Origin: Microthyrium microscopicum
Lineage: Eukaryota; Ascomycota; Dothideomycetes; Microthyriales; Microthyriaceae
Length of the DNA: 64,000 nt
Direction of reading: 5' to 3'
Assembly (NCBI GenBank): GCA_010405405.1
Contig: MU004230.1
Location: forward strand, 1,199,744 to 1,263,743
Shown: positions 28,626-61,155 of the stretch, piece after piece
How the letters are laid out: each line of letters begins with the position of its first letter
How positions within the stretch are numbered: the stretch's first letter is position 1
Translations under genes and position numbers: made by a program
Notes under the pieces: generated by a model
Databases searched by the model: none
The model's input: only the letters and a program-made list of their open reading frames with translations
Told to the model about the DNA's origin: nothing

Positions 28626-29748
28626 GGTGCCTTTACTGTCAATGGGATTATTGATGAGTGAGTATGACAACCCGATCTAGAGCTGAATGATCTGAGTCGA
28701 ACTGGACAAGTTTTCTGTAGATGGTTGTGGTGGACGGAAATTATGAAAGTGCAAATCGATACATGATTTGCATGCTTTGAATTCCATATTCTTATACTGC
28801 TTCAGATGTATCACGAAAGAATATCAGGCGAACCTGGGAATCATGTCCGCATGAACAAATTGCTTCCAGCTGACTGATAGAGACTCCCCAGCTGGCATAC
28901 TCTTCCGTTCGTGACTTGGGACTTCTGCATTAACCTTCCTGTTGCAAAGGACATTGTCAAATGATTGTCCGTTATGGAGTGCCATGCTTCAGTGACACCC
29001 TAGAGCTGAAGTCTATTCGAGGCCAGATGATTAATGCCAAATCGCAGTCTGGAAGAAGGCGGATATATTTGATCTGCTAGATTTGCCCATTTATAGGTGC
29101 CTGTAGCCTATAGACATGACATAAGTGCAATGATGCTACTTACTTCGGCAGAAGTTATTGAGCAGCTATATGACTTTTCTATGAATATTTTATTTGTTGT
29201 TGAAGATTGAATGATGTTTTGGGCCCCTGAATGCTCCGATATGATCGACAGGGATGTAGTTGCAGGAGCGAGCCTACTTTGTTGGATTTGTCATGATCCA
29301 GTCACCCTCTTTCAACTGCCAATCTTCTCAATTCTCGAGAATAATTTATCGACGATCATTGCAGGGCTTGCATTTTTTTGCTCCAGATCACTACGAGTTC
29401 AGCTGCTGCCTAGACTTGTAACTCTCTCGCCAATAATCTGTTACCGCAATTCCCCAAAAGAGAACCAAAAAAATCACGTGCAAGGAACTGTTGAGATCTT
29501 GGTATCCACTTTCTCGGCGATAACAAAGGCTGAAGCCGTCAGCCCCAAAGCCCCTCTACTTCTCCAGTCTACTTCTTTCCCTCGTCACTCTCAACACCTT
29601 TATCTCGACTCCCTTGCGCCCTATCCATTTGTCCTCCAATCCACTGCAAAATCCTTCCAGACCTTACTGCTATCCTCAACCATTGTGCTTATCTACCTGC
29701 GCACACCAGTATTGGATCCCTTTCGCGCCTCCAACCTCCTGCGCAGCC
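28626..29748. other. divergent promoter region, paralog 3 / Zn2Cys6 regulator
   Basis: A weaker copy of the 18-bp element (TACTT-CGGCAG-AAGTTA) lies at about 29141-29157. A CACGTG E-box occurs at about 29475. The open frame 29211-29792 (193 codons, plus) overlaps the regulator's start in another frame and has no domain; it is probably leader sequence. Confidence 0.5.
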
Positions 29749-32407
29749 ATGACGCCAACACCCTCCTCAACAACTTCCTCAAGCAACCATAATTCACCTA
29801 ATGAGCAGTTTCGAGTCGTGAGACGGCGCAATCGTGTTCCACTCTCTTGCGGACCATGTCGCCAAAGAAAGCTAAAATGCGATCGATCGCAACCATGTGA
29901 TAATTGCCGTAAAAGAGGAGATCTGGACTCCTGCGCCTATGCAACTCCAGTCGCGCGCAAGAAGAACTCGCTGAGCTCAACTTCATCCAATACTCCCGAT
30001 GAAATGCAAAATCGTATCGACCGTCTGGAAGGCTTGGTCTTGTCCTTGATGACCAATGGACCTACGGCTGCTGGACCCGCCGCTGCTGTGGCTGCAATTG
30101 CGCAAACTAGCTCGATGCCTGCTAGTAGCGTGAGCGGCAGTTCGAGTGAGTTCCCTGTTGACACGGATGATACGATACATGAAGAAATGGACGAAGGAGA
30201 AGATATGACAGATGTAGATGTTGATAAGCTTTCCAAGAATATCGGCGTTATGAAGGTCGATTCTGGCAAGAATATTTTCATTTCAGAGGCGCATTGGTAT
30301 TCTATCTTGGCAGAGATATCGGAAGTCAAGAATTATTTCAACGATAACAAAAAGTCATTCGAGGATTTAGGGAAAAAGATCAGCGCAAATAAAGAAGGTA
30401 GCAGCTCTACGACAGGTCTTTTCTTTCTCAATGCAGGTCCCGCAACAAAAGGGGAAATCCTACGGTCATTTCCGTCCAAGGGGACTACAGATGTGCTCAT
30501 TGCCCGATTTTTCGAAGTCTACAACTTTGACCCATCATTTCAAATTGTTCATGGACCCACATATCAAAAACAGTACGACCGGCACTGGGCTGCCCCTCAA
30601 GAATCCGAGGCCATTTGGCTTGGGTTGACCTATGCAATGATGATGGTTGCACTAGTCTCATATCAACGCAATGGGGATGAACCACCTGACTACCGAGGAC
30701 GTACCGAGGATATGTTCCGCGACTACAAACGACTTTCAGCGCAATGTATGGTTTTGGTAGATCTATACTCTCCTGCAAATCTACTGCTTGAAACAGCAGT
30801 GTTGTATATTGTTGCGGAACTTGGAAAGTCGAAAGACGCCGAAATGGGCACCATGCTTGGAATCACCACTATTGTACGACTGGCTATGAAAATGGGCTAC
30901 CATCGGGATCCGAGATACTTCCCATCCATCACACCATTTGCTGGTGAGATGCGAAGACGAGTCTGGGCCTTGATCAAGCATGCAGATTTACGGATATCAT
31001 CGCAATTCGGAATGCCGCCAATCATTCGAAGCGATGTTACGAATACTGAAACACCAAAGAACCTTTACGACGATGAACTGTCAGAGGATTTGAAAGAACT
31101 ACCTCCATCTAGACCACTTCAAGAAGCAACGCCAATCTCTTACATAATATACAAGGCGCAGGTCACCGATATTGGCTACCAAATTATTGAAGAAACCCAG
31201 AAACTGAACGACTCTTCGTATGAGGTTGTGATGGATCTTGATCGAGAGCTGCGAAGAGTTCATGAGGCTATTCCTCCACATCTCAAAATGCGCGCCGTCG
31301 ATGAATCGATACGTGACCCACCGAACGCAATTTTGAAACGGTACATTATGGAGATTATGTATCTCAAGTTCATATGCCTGTTACATCGCAAGTACAGTGG
31401 ATGTCCACGATACCCATTTTCGAAACGAACATGTGTGGAAAGCGCCATGGAAATATTGGCTTACCAGGCCACTATTTTCACAGAGCAGCGCCCTGGTGGT
31501 CGTTTGGCGGATGCGAAGTTCTTTGTCACATCTCTCACTAGCCATGATTTCCTCTTAGCCGCCATGATCGTTAGTGTCGATTTACATCGCGCGGCTGAGA
31601 CGGAACGTAGTGGACGCAGTCCAACAGACGTCTACGATGCCAATACACGAGCAAATAAGATCGCTGCTCTGGAGCAATCGTTACGAATGTGGGATAGTGT
31701 CAAGGAAGAAAGCATGGAGGCCTTCAAGGCTGTTGCTGCTCTAACAGCCATGTTGACCTTGCTAAGAGAACAAGACTCCAAACTGCGCAACAAGCTCCAA
31801 CCTTATGCTGCCCAAGCATTTGCATCTAATAGTGCGACTCCAGAAGACTCTAAACTAGCACCAGAACACTCAGCAGCAATGACTCTTGGTCTTCTCAGCT
31901 CAGGTCAACCACTCGGCACGCCTGCCAACACCTTCTCTCCAAACCCGTACGACTTGTCCAGCACATCAGCCTCAATGGCACCCCAACAATTCATGACTAC
32001 CGGCATCGCAGACAACATCCCCACTAACGCTGCTGCTCCGTTCACAAATCTCTTTGGCGCTGCCGGTAATTTCCCAGCCCTTGACATCCCACAGAATCTT
32101 GACTGGGTAAGTTATGTATATATCTCTACTATCATTACCAACTGACGTCTAACAATAGGATGCCTGGGACTCGTACATTCAAGGGGGCAATCCCATGGAT
32201 CCCACGATGGCCGCAACCATGTGGCCTATGAACCTGGATCCCGCCATGGACCCGTCTGCCAGCTCGCCATCGAGTCCAAATGCGCAAGCAACGAGTGGCG
32301 CAGGCAGCTTACCGCCTAATGGCTCAATGACCCAGCCGCTGACTGGATTCGGAGCAGTATTTAACGCGAATACAGTGTCAGAGCAAGCGCGCAACGGGCT
32401 GATGTGA
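29749..32407 (+). CDS. Zn2Cys6 fungal-specific transcription factor
   Basis: Two exons, 29749-32106 and 32159-32407 (intron 52 nt), 868 aa. The N-terminal binuclear zinc cluster has Cys34, 37, 44, 50, 53 and 62 (CGPCRQRKLKCDRSQPC...), followed by a likely coiled coil (MQNRIDRLEGLVLSLM). A Fungal_trans-type middle region includes RRRVWALIKHADLRISSQFGMP. The tail is Ser/Pro/Asn/Met-rich, probably activating. The second exon restores NLDWDAWDSYIQGG. I chose the ATG at 29749 (MTPTPSSTTSS); an in-frame ATG at 29614 exists, but its 45 residues look like leader. The family is conserved in filamentous fungi, but I cannot name the ortholog or targets. Confidence 0.92.
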
Positions 32408-46228: not shown

Positions 46229-49200
46229 CTAATGAACGCGGGGAGCAGTGGTGCTAGCATCCATGTTGCCTAGTAACATGTTAGATAATAGAGCTTTACA
46301 GATGAGGATCGTCTTTACCTGTCAATTCGGCAACTCGAGCTTTGATTCTGGCCACTCTCGATTCGATGGTCTCTTCACCACTAGTGTCACCATCATCGGA
46401 ACGGGCACTGGCACTTGGATTGCGACCATGATGCTGGGCATCACTAGCATCATTCAGTCGCTGAGCACGTTCTGCAGCATTCTTGCGGATTTGTGCCCAT
46501 CTATCAGAAGGTGAGCTTGTGTCAGCCCCAGTCGGTTGATCTACACTCGTCTCTGACATGTTATGGCTATGGACGGGTTTCTTGCCCAATGCCTGCGATG
46601 TTGGAGAAGAGTAGTCCGGCTCACGATGCACTTTGACAGGAATGCGATTATTAGCCGCACGTTTGATGACTGGTGGAGGTGCTGCCGCATCATCATCGCC
46701 GTCATCATAAGGTTCGTCTTCAGGGACAAATGCAGGAACGTCCTCTATAGGGCCTTGATCGAATCGTGAGAATTCTCGGTCTGCTTCCAGACGTTCTAAA
46801 GCTTCACGTCGAGCCTCATCGCGTTCCTGCTGGTCATCATGGCTATCATGTTGCATAGGTGGAGCATTGAATGTTGGCTCTTCGTGCACACTACGTGGTG
46901 GCGAGTCTGGAACTCTATCTGGTATGGGCTCTGGAGCTCGAGAAACCTCGGGAACAATGATAGGTCTGGATATAGGAGCCTTGGCTGCTGGCTTGCCTTC
47001 AAGCAGCGGATTTTGTCGTGGTTGTTTCTCCATGACTGACTTTTTACGGCCAAATAGCTTCTTAAACCCGCCGCCGGCTGGATCCTTCTTTTGTAACTTC
47101 TTATGTTCCTTGGGAGGACTCAACTTCTTCACTTCTGGACTAGGGGCTATCAACGGCTTGCTCTTGGCAGGGGGTGGTGAGTCATCTGGAGTCCGCAGAG
47201 CAGGGTGTTGGCCCTCTGGGGGCATTTTGTCATCCGCAAGTACATGTACTGGAGAGGCTGAAGATGGCACAGGGGCAGGGGGAGGTGTGACTGGACGAGT
47301 GGGAGTTCTCTCAATCTTGTCAGGCTCCTCTTCGGTTGGCAGTGCTGGAAGATCGCGGTTAGACAGTTCTCGCTGAACAGGTGTACGAGCACCATTTGAG
47401 GTGAGATCAATAGCACTCGTGCTGTTGCCATATCCCTTTCCTGTGCCTGCGTGCGGATCTTGCAGATATTGTTGTCTAATGTCATCTTTCAAGTTTCCAC
47501 TGTCATAATGATTGGTCCACTTAAGAGCCGCGCCAGCTTCGTTCAAAAAGTTACCCACAGTCATGGTACTGTTGGTTTTGGATGCTGAATCAGCATCCAA
47601 TCGAGATCTACGTTGCACAGAATTCTCCATATCGGCAGGTGTTTCTCCCTTTGCAAGTCTAATTGCGGCAGCTTGCAGTTTTTGATGCTTCTCCGGAGAA
47701 ATTCTGCTCGATGGTGTGGCTGCTAAGTCTCGATCCAAGGATTCTTGGGACGACTTTTCCTTCTTCTTCATAGTCGTCTTTTTACGGCTCAGTCGACCAC
47801 GTCTGGTGAATGAAAATCGACTTTTCTTTTCGGCGATATAAGCGCCTTCTTCTTGACCTGGCGATGCACCTTTGACCTGTTCTTCCATAAGAAGCCAATG
47901 GGCACCGCGGATATGAGTTTCAATGAGCGCGCATCTTCCAAACACGGCCTTTCGCTCTGCTGGCTCCTCCGCCGCGAGACTCGTCATCCAGACCCACCAA
48001 AAGGTTTCGTCCAAATCAAAATGAGCGATGCTAGCCAACTCACCGGGCTCAAGATCAGCAATGCCACCCATGGGACGATGTGATTGAGAGCTATGTGCCC
48101 GTGGCCCTCCCATCATTGGTATCTGCTTGTCCGGGGGAAGGAGTGTTGGAGATCGATCAGCCGGGAAACCTGTAGACAAGAAGTCCGCCCATGATGGAGT
48201 CGTTGGTCGTCCCAGATCGTTTGTCACACTGCCAGGCCCTGAGCGTATACCAGTACTACCAGGATTTGCCAGATCACCAGGGCTAGCCATCGAGTCGGAG
48301 AAATTGCCAAAGCCCATGTCTTCAAAACGAGACCATGATGGGTCTTGCACAGCAGTTCCGTTAGAAGGAACGGCAGACTGGTTTGTTGCTGAAATGCAAT
48401 CTAGAACTCGGCGGCATTCGTCCGTAAGTGCGCGAATCGGGTCTTCATAGTCCGAGAACTCTTGTAAAGCGTGGTCATCGTCGCGATATTCAAAATTCCT
48501 CGCTCTACGTAGAAGTGCAAATGGGGTTGGTGAAACATCCTGCACAATCATGACAACTTTAGTTGTAGCTGATTGCATTAAGCTAGGTGCTTCTGGAGGG
48601 TACTCGGTTTGCGAAAGGAGAGCTTGTAAGGACCGGGGTAGCTTCGAGATTCCGCTCACAGTTGGTCCCTGATCTGGAGCTAGAGAGCGCAGATATGCGA
48701 AAAACAAATGGCTAGTCGCATCGGCAGCACTATAATATGTTAGACTTGATATTTATTTTGCGCGTGGAAAGCGTACTTAGCCCATGATTTATAGCCTCCG
48801 TCAAAGCCTTTGCCTTGGTCAGAATGTTGAAAAGCCCACCATCCGGCATATCGTGAGAGTTTGCGGCCACCAAGGCCATTTGTCTTGCCTCGGGCAGACA
48901 CTGCGGCTAAGAGGTCGAAAAAGTCGTAGATGATCTCCTTTCGTGCATCAGAGTCTGTGCTTAGAGGAATGAAGACGTCAAAGGCATTCTTGGACATTTT
49001 TGAATCTTCACCTGTTAGTCCCTTTCCATTAGCGTGTAGATTTCCAACTCACCAACTTCTGCTGACTTGAAAAGTTCATATGTTTCCCATGTTACGACTC
49101 CGCCAGGGAGACGAGCCCAACACCACTTCATTATACTACAGAGGACCTGCAAAGCCATTAGCGTGGACCAACAATGATTTGAAAATAACCTACGATTGGT

Positions 49201-49600
49201 TCCATGAGTCGCAATTCACGACGGGCGAATGATTCGGAGCGCTTAGAGTCTGGCTCTCGATATTCTCCTTCATCATATCTGACTTTGAAATATTGACGAA
49301 CAAAGTTCTTGGAGCCTATTGGATCGAGACCGGGGCGGAAAGGAAGTAGGAGAAAGGGCATGTCGAGTGCTGCTCAGAGTCAGGAAAGATACCAGTAAAG
49401 TGGATAGAGCACACACCTCGAGATTTCATCTCATGCGTACAGACACTGATCAGCTTTTGAATTTCTTCAGGCTGAACCTCTGTCCGCGACCATGCTTCCT
49501 CCCAATTGGGTTTTGGTGGTGCCACAACATTGTTGGCCTCGAGGTTTTTCTTAGATCTCGAGTTTCCGTCGCGTCGAAAGACGCGGAAGATTGAAGGCAT
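46229..49600 (-). CDS. msb1: cell-polarity adaptor Msb1 (Msb1/Mug8 domain)
   Basis: Scaffold of polarised growth acting with Cdc42, Rho1 and formins. Six exons: 49600-49417, 49369-49194, 49146-49053, 49011-48777, 48729-46319 and 46269-46229 (introns 41-49 nt), 1046 aa. The N-terminal RhoGAP-like Msb1 domain is clear: KPNWEEAWSRTEVQPEEI, LDMPFLLLPFRPGLDP, MKWCWARLPGGVVTWETYE, FFDLLAAVSARGKTNGLGG, KLSRYAGWWAFQHSDQGKGF and AADATSHLFFAYLRSL. A second conserved part (ETFWWVWMTSLAAEEPAERK, HIRGAHWLLMEEQVKG) follows. The C-terminal half is disordered: Pro-rich, Lys-rich (PAGGGFKKLFGRKKS) and a helical end (ESRVARIKARVAELTG). The last small exon ends NMDASTTAPRVH. Confidence 0.93.
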
Positions 49601-51554
49601 CGTCGACTCTTGGTAGAGAAAAAGTTGAAAGGGGTTATGGTCAACTTTTGGATGCAAGAGGTGAAACTTGAAACAGCATTCGGAGAGAGATTTGGTAGGG
49701 CGACGGACAAAGTATAGGTAAATGAGGAAGAATTAAGCGCAAAGAGGGATGACGCGCACAGCACAATTGATGGAGGACAAGAGAATTAGAGAGTGGTGAG
49801 AGAGATTCTAGAGAGAGCGTGGTATTCGGCGAGGTTGTAGGAGTATTGAGAGTTGCAGCCCGTGGACATGGCAGTAGCGATGCAGGTGGATCATGGCCTG
49901 AGATGGAACGAAGCCTAAATTCGCTGGCACTGGCTCGCACCTGCATCAATCCAGAGACGCGACCTCCCAAAGTAGCGGCGACAGCACTAGGGGCTTGGTC
50001 CATGCACCAGCCGAGCTAAAAGATTGGAAAGAACAACCCATGAACAGTTAACGTATTCGGTAACTGCACCTGCCCATAACTAGCATCGCGACTGCCGCAA
50101 TTGCTGCGCTTTCTAATGATTTGGGATATGTTAGGGTGCATCAATACCTAGGTAGAGAAAGAGCCGCCTGAGCCACATAGTTACCCCGGATATCGTGGCA
50201 ATTGCATGATGTAGTTGCCCTCATTAGGGAGTCAAGGCAGTATATATACATCCACCAAACTGCTTTTCATATACATTGCTGTCGCACAACACCAACTACA
50301 AAAGTAACAATGCGCTATCTTCACCTGTCAATCTGTCAATCATTGACAACTTCTTCTCCTTTCGACAATGGCTGCGCTGGGCTGTCTCCCGCTCGTCAAA
50401 AACAGGAAATGAACAGGCTGTGAGGCGTCCAGCCCGCTGTCCCTCAATCACAAATCCACGCTGCTGCCCCTGATTTGTCCCTGCATTGACAACTCACTCT
50501 TTGCTGGCCTATCACCACTCTTTGTTCCATTTCCACCTAATTTTACTTGACCAAGTCTTTGCATTATCATTGATCATTCGCGACAACCCAACTACACTCT
50601 ACGCCTCACCAGACAGGAAGAGTTTTCTTGTGAGACCTGCAAGACAAGCTGTCATATGCACTCCAGCCATGCGCGTTGTTTGTATTTGGTACCTGAGGTC
50701 CTCTTCAATAGGCCAATGCGGGCACTAGACTATTCGGTACCAGTTCCACGCTATTCGAAGCTATCAAACAAAACCCGCGGTTAAATTCTCCAGCCTCTAA
50801 GAAAAAAGCCAAGATTTTTTCTTGCACGGAGTGACGGAGTGCGCCATACCCGCGAAGGTGTAACAGCCAATACTTTGAAATCGCCGAATCGGACCGTTAA
50901 AGACTTCAAAGGCGTCGCCAATTCTAGATGCTTTCAACTACTTGTACTTTTGGATCTTGGTAAAATGCAATTGATAATCTCCTACTAAAATCCTGGTGGT
51001 TCAAAACCTACATATTTAATTATTCATGATGCAGACGGTAGGACGATAAACCAGATATCCAGCACACATACTATCATTTGCGACTGCCAAAGTCAATATC
51101 TACTAGTAGTTGCAAATTCTTGGAGCCTGCTCGGATCAACGGATAAGGCTCCGATCGTTCACTCCAACGTTACTCTATCTGGCGAAAATGAACCTTGGCC
51201 AAAATACAAACCTGGTTCAATCATTTCAATCATTGATCTTCGCCAGGGTTACCTACACATACCTTGACATCCCAGTATCGCGGATCTCGAAGTGGGTGGA
51301 AGACTTGAGATGAAGAACTGGACCATGAGGTCTTTTTCTCCTTCTATTCTCCATTGCAACATGAGTCGACTTTTTCGCACTTCAATCTCCTCACTACCTG
51401 GGATTCAATGGACTTGAAAGATATATGATCAATCAGCGAGTGTAAGATTAGATATGTAAGTGCTGCAGCATCAGAACAGTTCCATCGTCTGGACTGGAAC
51501 CACAACCAAGTTACCTGGAAAGACGACCACGAACAAATTTTCTGCGCTTGCAAC
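49601..51554. other. 2-kb intergenic region
   Basis: msb1 promoter and 3' flank of the MFS gene. Short plus-strand frames (50202-50728) show no domain. It separates the core gene msb1 from the accessory cluster. Confidence 0.5.
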
Positions 51555-53277
51555 CTATATAATGTATCTAAAGCCTGGTGCTCTCCTCTCCTGAAAATGG
51601 TCCTCCACAACTTCCGGATGCCCAGCGGCCGCAGCCTCCTCTTCAGACAGCGCGAGCTTTGTATTCTCCCGAATGTGGACCCATCGCAAAATAGCAGCCA
51701 TAGTCGCGGTAAGCAGACAGACTATTGTGTTTGCAGTGCCTCCAGGAATGAACCGCGGACTATCTGTTGACGGGTACATATACGGACCATAAATACTTGC
51801 AGCGGTGCCCAGCATGTTGGCGATGGCGATGCATGCCGCTCGCTTGACAAGAGGACGAGGGAATGAGCTCACGGTCCATGATACCAGGATGGTGTCTAAA
51901 TATTGTTAGATTCATGACGAGAGTCAAGTTGGGAGGGCTGATGGTGTTGAACTCACAAGCAGATACGGAGCCTATTGGCATCAAGAACATGGCGAAGAAT
52001 CGTGCCCCAGTATGAGTGGTTCCCGTGGCAATGGCGTTGCCGACGGCAGAGATGAGCATTAGGACGATGATGTGGATCGATCGATCTTCAAATTTCGCTG
52101 ATGTCCATGTCACGAGCAAAGACACCAAGAGAGTAGCGAACTTGAAGTTGTCAGCAATTGCGCAAAACCATCAATCGCTTGACTCACCCATGGTGGGACT
52201 GTCAGCAGCAGTGTAGTAATCGGACCATATCCGAGTGTGTTCACAATCGCTGGAAAGAAGTACTGAAATGTCAGACTGAGAAGACTGAAATGCTGGCAAA
52301 GCACAAAGAGTGGAAGCCGATAATCCTTGAGCGCGAGCTTTAAACCAATCCAGACAGATTCTGCGTGCCTGGTGTCATCCTCTTTGATGTCTTCTTTTAG
52401 TCTCCATGCTGCAAAGGCCTTTTCTTCTTCGTTCAGCCAGCGAGTCGTATGAGGATAGTCTGGTAGCACTACAGCAGCAGTTATAGCAACGACAATGGTT
52501 ATGGCTCCGTCCTGTCACTTGTTAGCACCGCGGAAGAAAGCTTTGCAATGGCAAGCTCACGATGATGAAAAGCCACCGCCAGCCTGCAATACCTCTGTGA
52601 CCGTTCAGATTCCCAAGAATACCAGCGCTGATCAATCCCCCAAACATCTGCGCGAGCGCGTTGCCCGCGTACAGATATGAAATTCGACGAGTCAGCTCCG
52701 GGCGTGTATACCAGGAACTCATGAGGAAGACAGCGCCAGGGAAGAACGGCGCCTCTACAAAGCCCAAGAGAAAGCGCACAACAACGAGCGAAGGAAAGCT
52801 GTGGACAGCCGCGTTGCAAGTCGACACCACGCCCCAGAGTGTCATGACGGTCCCAAGGTACAGCGACGGACGCTTGACGCGCGTGATGAGAAGATTGGAT
52901 GGCAACTGCATGAGTAGGTAGCCCACAAAGAGGACTGATGTCGCGATGTTGTAGTCGTCGCCTTTCATCTTGAGGTCTTTCTGCAAAGTTCCCTGACGTG
53001 CTTGTGAAAGATTAGAGCGGTCGAGGTAGTTGAGCAAGTACATGAGGACCAGGAACGGGAGTAGGTGAATGTCGATGCTCCTGACAAGCTTTCGATGCAT
53101 TAGATCGCGAACACCAGTGTCGAGGTTTTCGAATTTGGTGGCCCATTCAGCAGTGGTGTCGCCATCGTAGACTGGCGTCACGGTGCCTTTGTGTGTCTCA
53201 GTGATGGGCTTTCCGTTGTCTCTATCGGAGGATATGGCCTCCTCAAACTTCTCATTGGTGTCCTTGAGTGTTTCCAT
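51555..53277 (-). CDS. MFS transporter, allantoate permease (Dal5/ACS) family
   Basis: Plasma-membrane importer of an anionic or small polar nutrient by family. Four exons: 53277-52561, 52511-52188, 52140-51957 and 51895-51555 (introns 49, 47 and 61 nt), 521 aa, usual for the family. The cytosolic N-terminus of about 70 residues is followed by 12 membrane segments. Family landmarks are LVLMYLLNYLDRSNLSQAR (segment 1 end), SVLFVGYLLMQLPSNLLI, RFLLGFVEAPFFPGAVFLMSSWY and IAGWRWLFIIDGAITIVVA (across the first intron). The linker has PHTTRWLNEEEKAFAAWRL. It is divergent from the dehydratase-like gene, with two copies of the 28-bp motif between them. Substrate unknown. Confidence 0.92.
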
Positions 53278-53692
53278 CTTTGTATGTACGTGTCGGCAGG
53301 AGGAAGTACAGTGAAGGCGGAAGACTGGAAAACTTCTCAAGGGAGTGAAGTATGCTATGTGACAAGGACAATGTTCAATCCCCGAGCTCTCTTATATGGT
53401 CATGCCACTCCCTCCCAGAAAATGGTGTTCATATCCAGCGTCGATCATCGACTCGCAGTTCACCCTTGCCGGCCAGATAGGCGTTTTTGCTATCGTGTGC
53501 TTCCCATGGGGACATTCGCTCATGTAGCTGCTGATATGATATAGATACGAAGCATTCGCACCCGCACACCTTGTTTAGTTCGAAGAGTTATTCGCTTATG
53601 CAGAAGACGAATTGAGTTATGCCAAATGCTGTCAGATTCAGAACTTATCGAATTCTAGGTCGCGGAGGCCGGATAAGTCATGGACGCTAGGC

Positions 53693-53720
53693 TGTCGTTC
53701 TCGCGCACCATATCCGGTGA
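53693..53720 (+). promoter_or_regulatory. 28-bp cluster motif, copy a
   Basis: Fits TGTCG-N4-CGC-N-CAC-N3-AT-N-CG, the 15 positions shared by all four copies. It matches copy b at 22 of 28 positions. It lies 415 nt upstream of the MFS start. Confidence 0.7.
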
Positions 53721-53858
53721 ACGGGAACATCCGCCCATTATGCCTACTTGTCAGTGGTAAGGATGAGATTTCATAACAAATATCGCGATCATCCAAGAAT
53801 AGTAGCGAAGTCTAGGTGGAAGAGCCCTGTAGTCAAGGATGTGTGGTTGACATTAGGT

Positions 53859-53886
53859 TGTCGCACCCGCTCACCACATCCGGTAA
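53859..53886 (+). promoter_or_regulatory. 28-bp cluster motif, copy b
   Basis: Same pattern, matching copy c at 22 of 28 positions. It lies 267 nt upstream of the dehydratase-like start. A CTTCTTTT-rich stretch follows, as after copy c. Confidence 0.7.
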
Positions 53887-54153
53887 GGCTTCTTTTTCCA
53901 TTCTATCATTCTAATTGTGGGCCTGACTTTTGATTTCTTTGACATCTCATTTGACATGACTGTTGAGATCAATTGTTTGAAACACTGATTCGATGACCCA
54001 ATTTATCGTCATCAGGTCGTTTTACCAGTGGCACTAGGCGTGCATCCTGGCAGCATTTTGGTCCTATAAGGTGCGTTACACAGTCGCTTGCATTCTTCCA
54101 AAGATAAAGCAATTCCAAGATATATCTAACTTTATCGATCAGAAGCAATCGCT

Positions 54154-55585
54154 ATGGTTTCACACGCCATACTCGAGAACGGGACCAACTCGCTACGCCA
54201 CTATGTTGGCAGATACATCACTGACCTGCCGAAACCGGCGGTGATAATTGACAGATCAAAGATGCGTCGACACTGTCAATCTCTCGACAAAGCCGTCAAT
54301 TTCCTGGGAGTGGATTTCAGGTTCCATGTGAAGACGCACAAGGTACCGGTACTTGACATGATTCCAAGCGTTGCTGACTATTGGTCAATAGACACGGGAA
54401 GGTGTGCGCCTTCAAGCTGGAGAATCGAAAGATGTTCGACTGATAGCATCAACCATGTCAGAAATCGACTTTCTCCAACCCGTCCTTCGTGGATTTCTCG
54501 ATGCTGGTCGCAAAGTCAACATGCTGTACGGTATGCCACTGCCACCTTCGCAAGTTGAACCGTTGGCAGACAAGGCCCAGCAGCTGGGTCCAGGCACTAT
54601 ATCCGTACTCATCGATCACGCATCACAGCTCCAGCATTTGATCCGCTTCTTCGAAAAGGCAGGAACCCCAGCAGGTGTCTATCTGAAAGTGGACACTGGC
54701 TACCACCGCGCTGGTCTCCCGCCATCCGGCATCAATAAGGATGGACTAGTCACTAGATTGATGGACTTGGAGAAGGAAGGCAAGATTGACTTTATCGGGC
54801 TATATTCACACAGCAGTCTTAGCTACAACGACTCGACGACGAAACAGGCGATGGCGAACCTAGAGGGTGAGATCCTTGGTTGCCTTGAGACACTTGATAA
54901 GAACGCGAGTCTTTTTCCAAGGGACAAGAATCTCACAATCAGCGTTGGCGCTTCACCCCAAGTGACTGCAGTGGAGAATCTAGTTGGACCAGAAAATACC
55001 TTATCTGAAGGCGCCAACAGTCTGCGACAGACAATGCAAAAGGCCATCACGGAAAGACCAAGCGGATTTTGCACAAGGCTTGAGCTTCACGCTGGCGTGT
55101 ACCCATTACTTGACGTTCAACAGCTTTCCACCCATTCTCGCGCCGACTTTGGCGATTACGAAGAAGAAATAGCCATCTGCGTCCTGGCAGAAGTGGTCAG
55201 TGTCTACAACGATGGCGAGCGAGCGCAGCCCGAAGCATTATTGGCAGTGGGCGTCACTGGCCTAGGACGAGAGCCGTGTGCTGCTTATGAAGGCTGGGGT
55301 ATACTTGATCGTGAGGCATACTCGCCTGATAGTGCTAAGCCAGAACGTCGCTTGGTCTTGAGTCGCATCAGCCAAGAGCATAGTATTGTTGCATGGAGCC
55401 AGATCAAGGGTCTTGGTGTAGAGGAGCAACTGTCTCCGATTCCTCTTGAAGTGGGCCAGACTGTTCGCATCTATCCTAATCATGCCTGCATTGCAGGTGC
55501 CATGTTTGACTCGTACTTTGTAGTGGATTCATCGGAAGATGGGAAACGAATTGTGGATATATGGGAAAGGGCGAGCAGGCGATAG
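54154..55585 (+). CDS. D-serine dehydratase-like / D-threonine aldolase-like PLP enzyme
   Basis: Fold-type III (alanine racemase-like) PLP enzyme of the Dsd1/D-threonine aldolase group, acting on D-beta-hydroxy amino acids. Two exons, 54154-54342 and 54392-55585 (intron 49 nt), 460 aa. The N-terminus has LPKPAVIIDRSKMRRHC and the PLP-lysine motif FRFHVKTHK, joined across the intron to TREGVRLQAG. Later come GVYLKVDTGYHRAG, GLYSHSSLSY and SVGASPQVT. The zinc site typical of Dsd1 is near the end: YPNHACIAGAMFDSYFVVD (His and Cys). The usual family sequence is RPHVKTHK; here Arg-Phe replaces Arg-Pro. Whether it dehydrates D-serine, cleaves D-threonine or acts on D-threo-3-hydroxyaspartate cannot be told. 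It lies between the MFS gene and the regulator. Confidence 0.9.
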
Positions 55586-55746
55586 TTCCATCACGTAACT
55601 CACGAAGTCCATGGGCGGGTATAATATAATGAGAATCGTATGTAAAAACTTAATGCTTTTATAACCTGACATATCTGCCTCAGACCAGAGCAGTCGTTAA
55701 CACAAGACGAAAAGACATCAAGGATTTTGTATCAACATGAACAGTC

Positions 55747-57777
55747 TCAAAGCACCGCGATATGCCTCTCAATCTGTTCCCTCGAAACTCCAGGCGTAAC
55801 TTGATATGAATACAAATTTCCAGTCTCATTACATCTCGCATAAACCAAAAACGACTGAATATGCTGGCTGGAATATGAGCCAAATTTCCCACTACCACCT
55901 TCATCATCCACTGTCTGAAACAGTGAAATTACGTCGCGCCCGTTCACGCGCTCATGGTTAATAACCTGCACTGCGTCCAAGATTTGAAAGACGGGAAAGT
56001 TTCCTTCTTCCAGAGCATCTTCTTTCAAGCGTTCTTCCAACCATTCCTGAATCCAGAGGCCTGTGGCCAGCTTGCGAGAGCGAAGAGCGCAGGCAAGTAA
56101 GAGCCCGGCAAAGCCAATTGTGTAGACGTTGAGTCGAATACAGTCGTTCCAATTGATTCCTGCAGCTATGCGGAGAAGTATTTGAATCCAATCTTCCATT
56201 TCTTCGTACAGGTCATCCGTGTCATCAAGAGATTTGCTACGTAAACTCTCCAGGGGTCCTGTGCATTGCATGGCTCGGGCAGTCACGTAGTAAGCAAAGT
56301 TGATCGCCAGACCATGTGACTGGAAGATTATCGGTGCGTTCTTTGGTTTTTGCACACTGTTGACATACCAAAGATTCAAGTCTTCCATGATCTCAGGCAA
56401 TTCGTGGTCTTGGAGAGAGGCATGCCACTCATCCAATTTCTCAGACTGATCGCTCATCAAAGCCATGAGCTCTTGATCCGATGTGGCGAGATAGGTTTCT
56501 TTGCTTGTGGTGTTTTTCAGAAGTGATGCTTCATAGGACGTAATGATTGCTGCGGTGCTGAGACGATGTGACTCGCAAAGTGTCCAAAGAACAGACGCTC
56601 TTCGATACGCCGACGTTTCCGACATGTTGTTGAACATCGGATCAAGCAATGGCGTTGACCACCTTCTATAGAAGTCCGGGACGCCGAAGTGGGCTCTGCG
56701 CCACCAGTTCTGCATCTTGACCTCCACCCATGCCGCGAGTAATCCAGCACCATCAGACATCAATTGATCGGAGTAGCTGATTAGTAGCTTTTCGATAGCT
56801 TGAGAATGAACCTGAAACTCTTTGAAGTTGCCCATTGACGATTCCAAGTAGCAGAACAGGACCAATGCTGTTAGGGCCACTGTTGGTTGTGAATGCAGTT
56901 CTTGATGTCCCCATGCAGATATCTGTCGCATCGCTGAACCGTAAAGCTCTCCACTCAAGCTCTCATGTCCAGCTTCTGGTCGATAACAGACACTTGAAGG
57001 AGCCGAAATCTTGGTAATCTTTCTTTGCGGTAGTGTGCGACTGAGACGACAAGCTGAAAGAGTGGCCATGGTGTCTCTGATGAGTCGTGACTGTCCACCA
57101 AGCGCCTCGATTTGGTTAAATGAGATATGCATTGCTGGCAAGCAGTAATGTCTCCATATGTTCATGTAGAACTTCATGAGATAACTGTAGTCGTGGCGTG
57201 GTACAAGTGTCGGTGGCATACGAATGCAGAGGTCGCTCGTACGCTTGCTATCCAACTGTGTCTCCTGAGAAGATAAATCCATGGGAGCATATGGCTCAGT
57301 CGACGTTTCGAAGTCATGATTATTTATATCATTCGAGTGCCAGTTAAAATCGTTATCTTCAAAATCTATTATCCTCGGATCGTCAGCATCGAGTGACCCT
57401 GTTGGACAAGGGGATGCTGTCGAGATAGTGAGAACTGTTGCTGAGCATGGTGGAGTACTTTGACTTTGTGAACCCTCACGGCTCAACGAAGCGATATCAA
57501 ATGAAGTCGAAATGGGCTTAGGGCGTGGTCTCTCAGTCTCACTCGGCCGAACGCTGCGAAATTCAAACGCCGGCGAGACTTGCTCACAAGGCTTCTCAAG
57601 CTTCAGACAGCTGCCACAGGTCGGTTTCTGTTCATCACACTTTTGATCTAATCAGCCAGGAAGCGAAAAAGTCTCAGCCATGGTCACCTTTTTTCGTCTT
57701 TTCCTGCAACTGACACAGCCCGCACGAGAGCGACAGATATTGGTCTTTTTCCGACGAGTCGGGGCGGGCCCATACAT
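55747..57777 (-). CDS. Zn2Cys6 transcription factor, likely regulator of the local cluster
   Basis: Two exons, 57777-57688 and 57639-55747 (intron 48 nt), 660 aa. The zinc cluster is split by the intron: MYGPAPTRRKKTNICRSRAG, then CVSCRKRRKK, joined to CDEQKPTCGSCLKLEKPCE, with Cys21, 24, 31, 38, 41 and 48. The acceptor is AAAAG at 57640 rather than the nearby TTAG, because only that choice keeps the cluster in frame. The long C-terminal part is the Fungal_trans_2 type (helical; SAMRQISAWGHQELHSQ, TVALTALVLFCYLESSMGN, AAWVEVKMQNWWRRAHFG). It is divergent from the HAD gene and convergent with the dehydratase-like gene. The shared 28-bp motifs suggest that it controls the cluster and itself; this is inference. 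Confidence 0.9.
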
Positions 57778-57899
57778 GATGCATTGATGAGGAATGCCTG
57801 TTGAAAGGTAGCCATCATATCAAAAAGGAATTGTCGACGCGGTCATGTATGTATGGGCTAGTTTACCTTGCTGTCGGAAGACCGACGTCAATTTAAAGT

Positions 57900-57927
57900 T
57901 GTCGCAGTCGCGCACCTCATTCGGTAT
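57900..57927 (+). promoter_or_regulatory. 28-bp cluster motif, copy c
   Basis: Same pattern; 23 of 28 positions match copy d and 22 match copy b. It lies 122 nt upstream of the regulator start. Confidence 0.7.
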
Positions 57928-58136
57928 AGCCCTTCTTTTCCCAGACTCTATATTTGGCCTCCTCGCTTGCAAGTCGAGACACTGACTCGACACTATATGG
58001 GCCGATAGTGAGATTAATCATGCTTTCTAGCAACTTTTGAAAAAATTACCTTTCAAGTATCTACCCGGTTCGGAAACTGGCAGGGGTCTTACTACGCCAG
58101 CAAATTGATCATGGTCCATCATCAACACGCGAGCGT

Positions 58137-58164
58137 TGTCGCTCTCGCGCACTTCATTCGAGAT
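58137..58164 (+). promoter_or_regulatory. 28-bp cluster motif, copy d
   Basis: Same pattern, 132 nt upstream of the HAD start and about 34 nt before its TATA box. It is the least like copy a (19 of 28). Confidence 0.7.
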
Positions 58165-58296
58165 AATGCCTCGAGAGGCACGTCAAGGTCATGAGGATAT
58201 AAATGATAGCTTTATCATCGATGTCGTCAGCTCGCCAACACATTCAACGGGGAGTTTCAATAATATAACCGCCTTAACCAAGTCTCCACCGTCATC

Positions 58297-59022
58297 ATGG
58301 CACCACAAAGCAAGATAAAAGCAGTTTTCTTTGATTTCATGGGCACATGTGTCGACTGGCACAGCTCTGCTCTCGGTGCAATGCCACCAGCAGTTCCAAA
58401 AGACATCGCATCCAAAATGGCCATCGACTGGCACCAGCGATACTTCTGGGAAAACAGCCAACTCTCCGCCAAAGGCTTAGGACCGGAAGACATTGACCTA
58501 ACTCTCGCGCGCGCCCTCGGCGCAATAATCGATCAGAACCCAGAACAAGCCGGTCATTTCGACGACGCAGCCAGAAGAAAGCTGGTGGAGAAATGGCACT
58601 TCCAGTCTGCCTGGCCCGACGTCATAAAAGCCATCAATAGTCTCCGCGAAGATCTTGGTCTGGACGTGCTTGTGCATGGCAACGGCACTCCAAGGATGCA
58701 GATGGATCTTTGTCGCTCGTCTGGAGTGCAGTTTAGCATGCTGTTTTCGAGCCTGCTGCTAGGCTTTTACAAGCCTGATCCGAGATCATACAAGAAGGCA
58801 TTGGAGCTTGTCAATTTTGGGCCAGATGAGGTGGTGATGGTTGCGGCGCATGCTTATGATTTGCGAGGAGCGCAGAAGGCTGGGATGAGAACTATTTATA
58901 TTCATCGATGGTCGGACGATACTGACGAGGATATGGAGAAGGTGAAGACAGAGTTTGATGTCTTCTTGGAGGATATGGTTGAGCTTCCTGCGACTATAGA
59001 GAAGTGGAATGCTGCTGTGTAG
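58297..59022 (+). CDS. HAD-superfamily hydrolase, type II haloacid dehalogenase-like
   Basis: Single exon, 241 aa, usual length. HAD motif I is FFDFMGT with the nucleophile Asp13. Motif II is in VLVHGNGTPRMQ (a Gly-Asn-Gly variant of the common SNG). Motif III is GFYKPDPRSY (Lys159). Motif IV is VMVAAHAYDLRGAQKAGMRT (Asp188), the VAAHxxDLxGAxxAG form characteristic of L-2-haloacid dehalogenase-like proteins. Fungal members are often annotated as dehalogenases, but true substrates are mostly unknown and may be phosphorylated or carboxylated metabolites. It is the last member of the cluster, followed by core DNA-repair genes. Confidence 0.9.
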   Translation: MAPQSKIKAVFFDFMGTCVDWHSSALGAMPPAVPKDIASKMAIDWHQRYFWENSQLSAKGLGPEDIDLTLARALGAIIDQNPEQAGHFDDAARRKLVEKWHFQSAWPDVIKAINSLREDLGLDVLVHGNGTPRMQMDLCRSSGVQFSMLFSSLLLGFYKPDPRSYKKALELVNFGPDEVVMVAAHAYDLRGAQKAGMRTIYIHRWSDDTDEDMEKVKTEFDVFLEDMVELPATIEKWNAAV

Positions 59023-59528: not shown

Positions 59529-61155
59529 TCACGAGGCGTTCTTCATGTTCCCACAAATATCACAAGTCCACCACTGATGTTCCATAAAATTGCCGCAGTA
59601 ATCACAATTCCAACCCGCAGCACGCAAGTTCGACAGGTGTGAGTTCGCAGCGGGCGGTCCTGGATGTGCTTGCGGCACAGATGAACGTTCTGGCCGCTCA
59701 ACTTCACATGCGCCGCACACTATAGCGTCTGCCTGGTTGATGAGCGTGCAGATTTCGCACTGCCAAGTAGTGCTGGGCGATGACGTGCTAGCTAAGGAGG
59801 GTGTGTTGGAGCGTGAGGAGGAGCCTCCTTGGAGGGACTTTTTAATGATCTTCTGCTTCTTTTCGCTTTCTTTGACTAGGCGGGACATGGGCTTGCCGAA
59901 GCGATTGATTTCGGGCACTTTCTTTCCCGGCTTGTTGGGTGGTACTAGTGGAGCTCTGGACGAAGATGGTCGCGATTTGGGGTTGGGTATGGGAGGGGAC
60001 GGACCGTAAGATATAGGTGGTGGTGCTGGGCGAGATGCTGCAGGCACAGGATGCGGAGGTCGTGAGGTTATCGGAGCAGCGCTGGTTGGTGCTTCCTGAA
60101 GACCATTGATGGGATCCCAGGTTAGGCCTTCCGATACGGGCGGAGCGACAAGGTTTGTGTGGTATTCTTGATCCAGCTGACGTTCTTCGTCTGTAGCCAT
60201 GAGCTCTATAGTGGCTTGTTGAATGGCCATGGCATTTGCTTGGTCCATATCTTCCTTCGTTCTGAAGCCATTGAGCAAGGCGTCATGCGCAGCTTGCTCA
60301 GCACCCTTGGATCCAGTAGCACATCCAGTTGTAACAGCTCGAGTAGTCTCTGTGGTTCTCCGAATCGTAGCATCAGCAATAACTTCGTTGATTCTAGTGC
60401 CCGGCGTTGGTCTAGCGCCTCCTAGTCGATGTCCTTGGCTTTGTTGGGCCTTGCGCTCCTTGTCACGTTTCACAGCTTCTGCTCGAGCGCGACGTCTCAT
60501 CTCTTCTCGAGGCATATGAGCGCCGCCTAGTTGGCGACCTTGGCCCAAGAAGCCTTCTCCAGTATATCCCTTGATGGTGAGAGTCTCCCACTCGTCTCTC
60601 AACTCGTTCCAAAGCTTATGAAAATCATCGTTATGAGGACCTATTGCGTTATGACACAATTCATGAAGCATTGTGTCTAACGCGTGTTCGAATGGGAGAA
60701 ATGACCGAGAGTTATGTGCGTATCTTAACCGAATGTGTATTGTTTCGCCGCGATTCACGTTAAGACCTTGTTTTAGTTAGCCTGCAAGGCCTCATTTTCT
60801 TCAACCAAGTGGTGTAAATACCTAAGAGATTTTGCTGTTGAGGAAAGAATTCGCTCAGTGTACCAACACGCCAGCCTCGCTTGCGCATAATGGGTTTGAC
60901 GCAGGACGCGATCTTGCGAAGCATTGTGAGCGCGCTCGCAGAGTCGGACATCTCCTGCATATGCACATATTGTTGAATCAAAGGGTCTATTTCCCGCATC
61001 TTGGACAAGCGCTTCCTCGCTGAGCGGTAGAGATCTGAGAAGTCTTCAAGCACTGAGCCTGGTGGTAGTTCGGTTTGAGCGTATTGAGGTTGAGGTTGAG
61101 GAGGGCGGCGAGGGGACTTGGAGGAACGACGGCTGGAAGGATTTGAATCTGGCAC
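59529..61155 (-). CDS. wss1: DNA-protein crosslink protease Wss1 (WLM metalloprotease, SPRTN group)
   Basis: Metalloprotease that removes proteins crosslinked to DNA, with Cdc48 and SUMO. Two exons, 61155-60822 and 60766-59529 (intron 55 nt), 523 aa. The join restores NLLGLNVNRGETIHIRLR. The WLM domain carries the active site TMLHELCHNAIGPHNDDFH (HExxH at 146-150 and a third His). Next are GHRLGG-type repeats (GRQLGGAH, GHRLGGAR), a Pro/Ser-rich linker with FGKPMSRLVKES, and two C-terminal RanBP2-like zinc fingers: WQCEICTLINQADAIVCGAC and WNCDYCGNF...WTCDICGNMK. The linker is where Cdc48- and SUMO-binding motifs normally lie. Confidence 0.94.

Follow-up and report, generated by a model that had tools for sequence, protein, structure and literature searches.

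Do the four adjacent genes at 51555-59022 of a 64,000-nucleotide (nt) stretch of the Microthyrium microscopicum genome (contig MU004230.1, positions 1,199,744 to 1,263,743, forward strand; the whole stretch is hereafter the window) form one regulated unit, and, if so, what does that unit consume? The genes lie in two divergent pairs, one consisting of an MFS transporter and a D-serine dehydratase-like pyridoxal phosphate (PLP) enzyme, the other of a Zn2Cys6 regulator and a haloacid dehalogenase (HAD) hydrolase. Uninterrupted proteins are obtained from splice models in which three of the genes have short introns of 47-61 nt, a length suggestive of an ascomycete, and these models together with Pfam matches bear out both the gene calls and the range given in a preliminary description of the locus. 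On balance we favor a small catabolic cluster of four fungal genes that is controlled by a Zn2Cys6 regulator of its own. The genes and the two divergent promoters are as follows.

51555..53277, minus strand: MFS transporter, 521 amino acids (aa) in 4 exons; introns 52560-52512, 52187-52141 and 51956-51896 (in-frame splice model)
53278..54153: divergent promoter A (MFS/dehydratase)
54154..55585, plus strand: D-serine dehydratase-like PLP enzyme, 460 aa; intron 54343-54391 (splice model)
55747..57777, minus strand: Zn2Cys6 regulator, 660 aa; intron 57687-57640 within the zinc cluster (splice model)
57778..58296: divergent promoter B (regulator/HAD)
58297..59022, plus strand: HAD hydrolase, 241 aa, no intron

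What ties the two pairs together is a shared site, TGTCG-N4-CGC-N-CAC-N3-AT-N-CG, of which the window holds four exact copies, all on the plus strand and two in each divergent promoter. The copies and a related half-site are located at:

53556..53569, plus strand: 5'-half-only copy (TCG-N4-CGC-N-CAC), promoter A
53693..53716, plus strand: copy 1, MFS/dehydratase promoter
53859..53882, plus strand: copy 2, MFS/dehydratase promoter
57900..57923, plus strand: copy 3, regulator/HAD promoter; first base 123 bases from the regulator ATG
58137..58160, plus strand: copy 4, regulator/HAD promoter; first base 160 bases from the HAD ATG

The preliminary description had reported these copies at the same positions and on the same strand, which holds, but as a motif of 28 bases, whereas the pattern spans 24. 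Its count of exactly two per promoter is right for full copies, and promoter A has the additional 5'-half-only match at 53556; of seven 5'-half-sites in the window, five lie in promoters A and B, four of them as parts of the full copies. Its remark that the motif was not noticed elsewhere in the window is confirmed, there being no other exact match.

Several comparisons indicate that this arrangement is not accidental. With up to three mismatches allowed, the window contains a single further match, at 32328 (3 mismatches), and five matches at this tolerance were reached in 2 of 100 shuffles. The pattern had been derived from the copies themselves, and an additional, pattern-free test was therefore run: the best ungapped 28-mer common to promoters A and B is identical at 23 of 28 positions, a value that none of 400 random pairs of same-length window segments (mostly coding sequence, not promoters) attains, their maximum being 22. 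The repeat within each promoter is weaker when taken alone, being equalled by 10/400 and 4/400 random segments for the two promoters. A weight matrix built from the four copies scores them at 41.7-45.7 bits and the next best window position at 13.3 bits; as the matrix was trained on the same copies, the gap to 13.3 bits is its sole informative part. Identity over the six copy pairs averages 74% in a 30-base core and 19-30% in five flanking blocks, and the copies are therefore discrete sites. Together they are very probably regulatory.

The promoters also contain more conventional elements. TATAAG occurs in promoter A at 53391 (minus strand) ahead of the MFS gene and at 54065 (plus strand) ahead of the dehydratase gene, and TATAWA occurs in promoter B at 58198 (plus strand) ahead of the HAD start; upstream of the regulator start, neither of the two TATA-like words tried was found. 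By eye, copy 3 directly adjoins TTTAAA, and a GACGTC core is close by, both toward the regulator start (57885-57905). When a coding origin of the motif was considered, the copies read in frame were seen by eye to resemble the N-terminus of the regulator. The 5' part of the motif also recurs on the minus strand as TGTCG-N3-TCGYGC at 57722-57735, in the first coding exon of the regulator; this match is probably due to chance, because the codons there encode the start of the zinc cluster. Just upstream of the 32328 match lies a second Zn2Cys6 regulator, which has a Fungal_trans domain (29524-32145, plus strand). The match is the lone motif-like place beside that gene and is at chance level.

The natural candidate to read the sites is the regulator encoded between them. 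Its zinc cluster matches PF00172 (Zn_clus) at 34.7 bits (cut-off 21), and in the spliced model its cysteines (C21, C24, C31, C38, C41 and C48) have the spacing 2-6-6-2-6, which agrees with the class consensus, C-x2-C-x6-C-x(5-12)-C-x2-C-x(6-8)-C. The remaining 601 aa have no Pfam match even at E 10 and thus no Fungal_trans domain (PF04082), a middle domain that is common in Zn2Cys6 regulators and not obligatory. The zinc-cluster codons are split by the intron at 57687-57640 (minus strand), and the six-cysteine cluster depends on an in-frame AAG acceptor. Were the TAG that lies 8 bases earlier used instead, the protein would end at 44 aa, and with the intron retained it would end at 41 aa. Because either event would truncate the regulator, splicing of this intron could be a switch in itself. 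That the local Zn2Cys6 protein reads the predicted 24-bp sites is the simplest reading and a probable one.

Turning to the structural genes, the transporter matches PF07690 (MFS_1) at 146.1 bits. Its best-scoring NCBIfam subfamily is TIGR00893, the D-galactonate transporter of the anion:cation symporter family, yet the score of 202.8 bits is well under the family cut-off of 395. By this comparison the protein is nearest to the anion:cation symporter type of permease, and import would be the presumed direction of transport.

The PLP enzyme combines PF14031 (D-ser_dehydrat, 73.6 bits) with PF01168 (Ala_racemase_N, 40.6 bits). Among solved sequences it is closest to chicken D-serine dehydratase (3anu) and D-threo-3-hydroxyaspartate dehydratase (3wqc), which share with it both domains, the lysine of an HVKT stretch and a His-x-Cys pair, and from which it differs in overall sequence, with 34% and 30% identity, respectively, to the fragments used. 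Three residues are invariant in four of four alignment rows, the other three rows being fragments: K60, which we take to be the PLP lysine, and H427 and C429, the presumed metal ligands. In PMC4401734, the metal ligands are described as His and Cys in the chicken dehydratase and as His and Asp in D-threonine aldolase (His347 and Asp349 in AxDTA). By its predicted metal site the present enzyme is of the dehydratase type, because it has the His-x-Cys pair of the chicken dehydratase and not His-x-Asp. D-threonine aldolase was accordingly rejected as an assignment, the sequence reading H-A-C. Yeast Dsd1p is a further Zn-dependent D-serine dehydratase and a presumed relative by family. The preliminary description had tentatively proposed a beta-hydroxy or beta-substituted D-amino acid as substrate. 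A dehydratase-type HxC site would be compatible with beta-hydroxy amino acids, but a D-hydroxy amino acid is only one option, and we consider the chances that the cluster substrate is a beta-hydroxy amino acid to be evenly balanced.

The HAD protein is the most unusual member of the set. It matches the Pfam family Hydrolase/HAD, and its score of 124.7 bits against NCBIfam TIGR01428 (haloacid dehalogenase type II) is short of the cut-off of 125.4 by 0.7 bit. An AlphaFold2 model from 41 aligned sequences has a predicted local distance difference test score (pLDDT) of 90.2; in a Foldseek search its best match is 8wbp, with a template modeling (TM) score of 0.83, and 3umc chains follow at 0.77-0.81. 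As modeled, the protein folds like L-2-haloacid dehalogenases and cis-epoxysuccinate hydrolases (CESH). A genome-contig search with the HAD alignment provided 80 prokaryotic loci out of 536 relatives, from which 41 of the longer matches, though not every one of these, were picked for alignment; L038, which has a stop codon, was dropped, leaving 40. Five residues, D13, K159, Y165, H185 and D188, agree in 40/40 of these relatives, an invariance that is partly built in, as D13, H185 and D188 are within the search patterns (positions 46, 126, 127, 159, 165 and 207 are outside them). The Asp nucleophile (D13), Lys (K159) and His (H185) of the dehalogenases and CESH[L] are thus kept in the fungal protein.

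Other active-site positions have changed. The cap-domain Arg found at position 46 in 38/40 relatives is replaced by His, position 126 is Val (Ser in 39 relatives, Thr in 1), position 127 is His (Asn in all 40), and position 207 is Asp (Glu in all 40). In the relatives the Ser/Thr-Asn pair of positions 126-127 follows a core strand. In a pairwise tally of all 80 loci, which agrees for position 46, this position is Arg in 71 and His in 1; position 126 is Ser in 54 and Thr in 5, position 127 is Asn in 55, and 20 and 21 rows, respectively, have a gap there. Because of these gaps and a two-residue insertion close to 126-127 in the fungal HAD, the exact register at 126-129 is held with less certainty than that of other positions. 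According to PMC10869282, R55 of RhCESH[L] is the proposed proton donor, D18-H190-E212 form a triad, and of the two carboxylates the first is bound by T133 and N134 and the second by Y58, R59, N134 and Y192. Counted by hand along the 8wnh alignment, the numbering of which reproduces the residue numbers of that paper, the corresponding residues are H46 for R55, D13-H185-D207 for the triad, V126 and H127 for T133 and N134, and Y49, F50, H127 and Y187 for the second carboxylate site; the pocket residues Q20 and R59 correspond to M15 and F50.

Compared with 3umc and the CESH[L] structures 8wbp and 8wnh, the fungal HAD therefore shares the fold (query-normalized TM 0.77-0.83) together with D13, K159, Y165, H185 and D188, and differs at H46, V126-H127 and D207, as well as at M15 and F50 relative to RhCESH[L]. 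As judged from these residues, the protein has retained what is needed to form the ester and has exchanged most of the pocket that binds anions. With Arg, Ser-Asn and Glu all replaced, the substrate has probably changed, and the new one is probably less anionic. Cis-epoxysuccinate hydrolase or 2-haloacid dehalogenase activity is unlikely, the substrate-binding residues having been lost. The altered residues could alternatively reflect decay of the enzyme. Because the protein has the substrate-binding residues of neither lookalike family, it does not reveal the proposed pathway.

We also looked among bacterial operons for clues to the substrate. In the 80 HAD loci, with flanks of up to 10 kb and shorter in many, tblastn at E 1e-5 with the fungal dehydratase, MFS and regulator gave no match (0/80), and three solved sequences of the dehydratase family, used as fragments, gave none at E 0.01 (0/80). 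The neighbor test with the fungal dehydratase is weak, as this query detects 7 of 17 prokaryotic PF14031 loci. In 20 genomes taken from the 80 HAD loci, mainly named isolates, PF14031 is present in 14, at 17 places, none of which (0/17) overlaps a HAD locus; these 17 loci, about 3.3 kb each, contain no HAD or MFS match, which carries little weight. When the longest open frame of each of these loci served as query, at least one frame was something other than the dehydratase; its two matches, in L051 and L046, are fatty-acid hydroxylases, and this comparison was given no weight. No relative was found in a first genome-contig scan with the dehydratase, nor in viral contigs scanned with the HAD and the dehydratase. 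No pairing of the HAD with the dehydratase was seen in the prokaryotic loci covered, and the operon approach was dropped.

If the four genes do act together, their products suggest the following scheme. The MFS permease would import a small organic acid or amino acid, the metal- and PLP-dependent dehydratase would convert a beta-hydroxy amino acid to a keto acid with loss of water and ammonia, and the HAD, with its Asp nucleophile, would make or dispose of a related compound. In the presence of substrate the Zn2Cys6 protein would bind the 24-bp sites in both divergent promoters and raise expression of all four genes, including its own. The sequence itself shows the genes, their protein families, the sites and their restriction, within the window, to promoters A and B, and which residues occupy the catalytic positions. 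We infer that the local regulator binds the sites and that binding activates, as well as the direction in which the permease works and the kind of substrate. A more specific and rather doubtful version is an undescribed fungal pathway consuming a beta-hydroxy or beta-substituted amino acid or a precursor, in which a remodeled HAD with a less polar pocket hydrolyzes an Asp-ester on a new substrate and the regulator recognizes, in each of the two promoters, a 24-bp site that is unusually long and has a single orientation.

How do these readings compare with the alternatives? The case for a small co-regulated cluster, also put forward in the preliminary description, is that the two promoters serving the four genes contain isolated sites, four in all, which within the window are confined there; that proposal is supported in part, the HAD giving no indication of the pathway. 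Several observations weigh against a catabolic cluster under its own regulator. CGG is the usual triplet in targets of the Zn2Cys6 class, and here copies 1-3 run on with CGGT and copy 4 with CGAG, so that the triplet is CGA in the last. The most constant part, TGTCG-N4-CGC-N-CAC, differs from the standard Zn2Cys6 site, and an asymmetric site of 24 bp is long for the class, so that another factor could bind. A weak excess of GATA-type sites in promoter A speaks for the cluster: there are 7 against an expected 3.2 (P 0.036), and promoter B has 4 against 2.0 (P 0.132), among 8 patterns tried on 2 promoters; given these trials the excess is marginal, a mere hint of nitrogen control. In addition, the prokaryotic loci examined offer no independent pathway link between HAD and dehydratase, and no gene models were obtained for 48753-51554, to the left of the MFS gene. 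It is conceivable, if unlikely, that the sites belong to a different, broader factor, such as a nitrogen or stress regulator, of which the local Zn2Cys6 gene is merely one target. The length and asymmetry of the site and an invariant part that is not CGG-based would suit such a factor, with CGG present in three of four copies; a broad site would, however, be likelier to recur, and the 64 kb, though a small sample, contain no further good match.

Common regulation of two divergent pairs that do not form one pathway is less probable still. No substrate that both enzymes could share is obvious, the residues with which relatives of the HAD bind carboxylates are missing from it, and no co-localization was seen in the prokaryotic loci, but the genes are adjacent, the sites are shared, and an importer and a regulator stand in the same block. 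Least probable of all, and by a wide measure, is that the repeat is a by-product of local duplication or of a mobile element and not a selected site. Copies 1 and 2 do lie inside a longer, diverged duplication of promoter A (53646-53718 and 53803-53884, comprising 48 nt at 73% and a 25-nt block at 76% identity), and part of their likeness is due to it. Between the promoters and between copies 3 and 4, by contrast, likeness largely ends at the core edges, the best flank block among these pairs being 10/24.

The nearest flanking frames with Pfam matches are Msb1/Mug8 on the left (46296-48752) and, on the right, a protein with a WLM domain (59529-60776); both look like housekeeping genes, which counts in favor of the cluster. 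Within 48753-51554, two short frames have no Pfam match. A short frame at 50989-51264 (plus strand) contains a stretch that by eye resembles a retrotransposon reverse transcriptase, with no Pfam match at E 1. Nothing in the whole window reaches Rfam gathering scores.

If the cluster is what we propose, it constitutes a self-contained and testable fungal regulon of one regulator, four sites and three structural genes. Its HAD poses a puzzle, as Asp-ester machinery is kept while the substrate-holding residues are replaced, which suggests a substrate that has so far not been linked to this fold. Its identification could reveal a nutrient, or a plant or soil compound, for which fungi have a degradation route not yet known. 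A literature search of titles and abstract openings yielded, among the matches listed, no description of this four-gene cluster. In the collection searched, no paper names both 'haloacid dehalogenase' and 'D-serine dehydratase'.

The combination of importer, enzymes and regulator is nevertheless the usual make-up of fungal catabolic clusters, to judge by analogy with known ones. The nicotinate cluster of A. nidulans (PMC5746545) is one such example, with a regulator of another class. In Aspergillus niger, a D-serine dehydratase-like gene is named in a table, and no cluster is described for it in the passages of PMC11537073 examined; the enzyme studied here differs from the solved and yeast dehydratases named above in being embedded in a cluster with an importer and a regulator. 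The closest regulatory parallel is TerR, the Zn2Cys6 regulator of the terrein cluster, for which several sites are documented in a bidirectional promoter (PMC4360782). In each system a shared promoter carries more than one site, here a predicted one, for the Zn2Cys6 factor of the same cluster. TerR, as described there, reads CGG direct repeats (TCGGHHWYHCGGH), whereas the present site is longer and built differently, and the TerR-type pattern TCGG-N5-CGG is absent from promoters A and B; the terrein cluster is biosynthetic, and the present one is proposed to be catabolic. The cluster is of a known general kind, and the altered active site of its HAD is the part most worth following.

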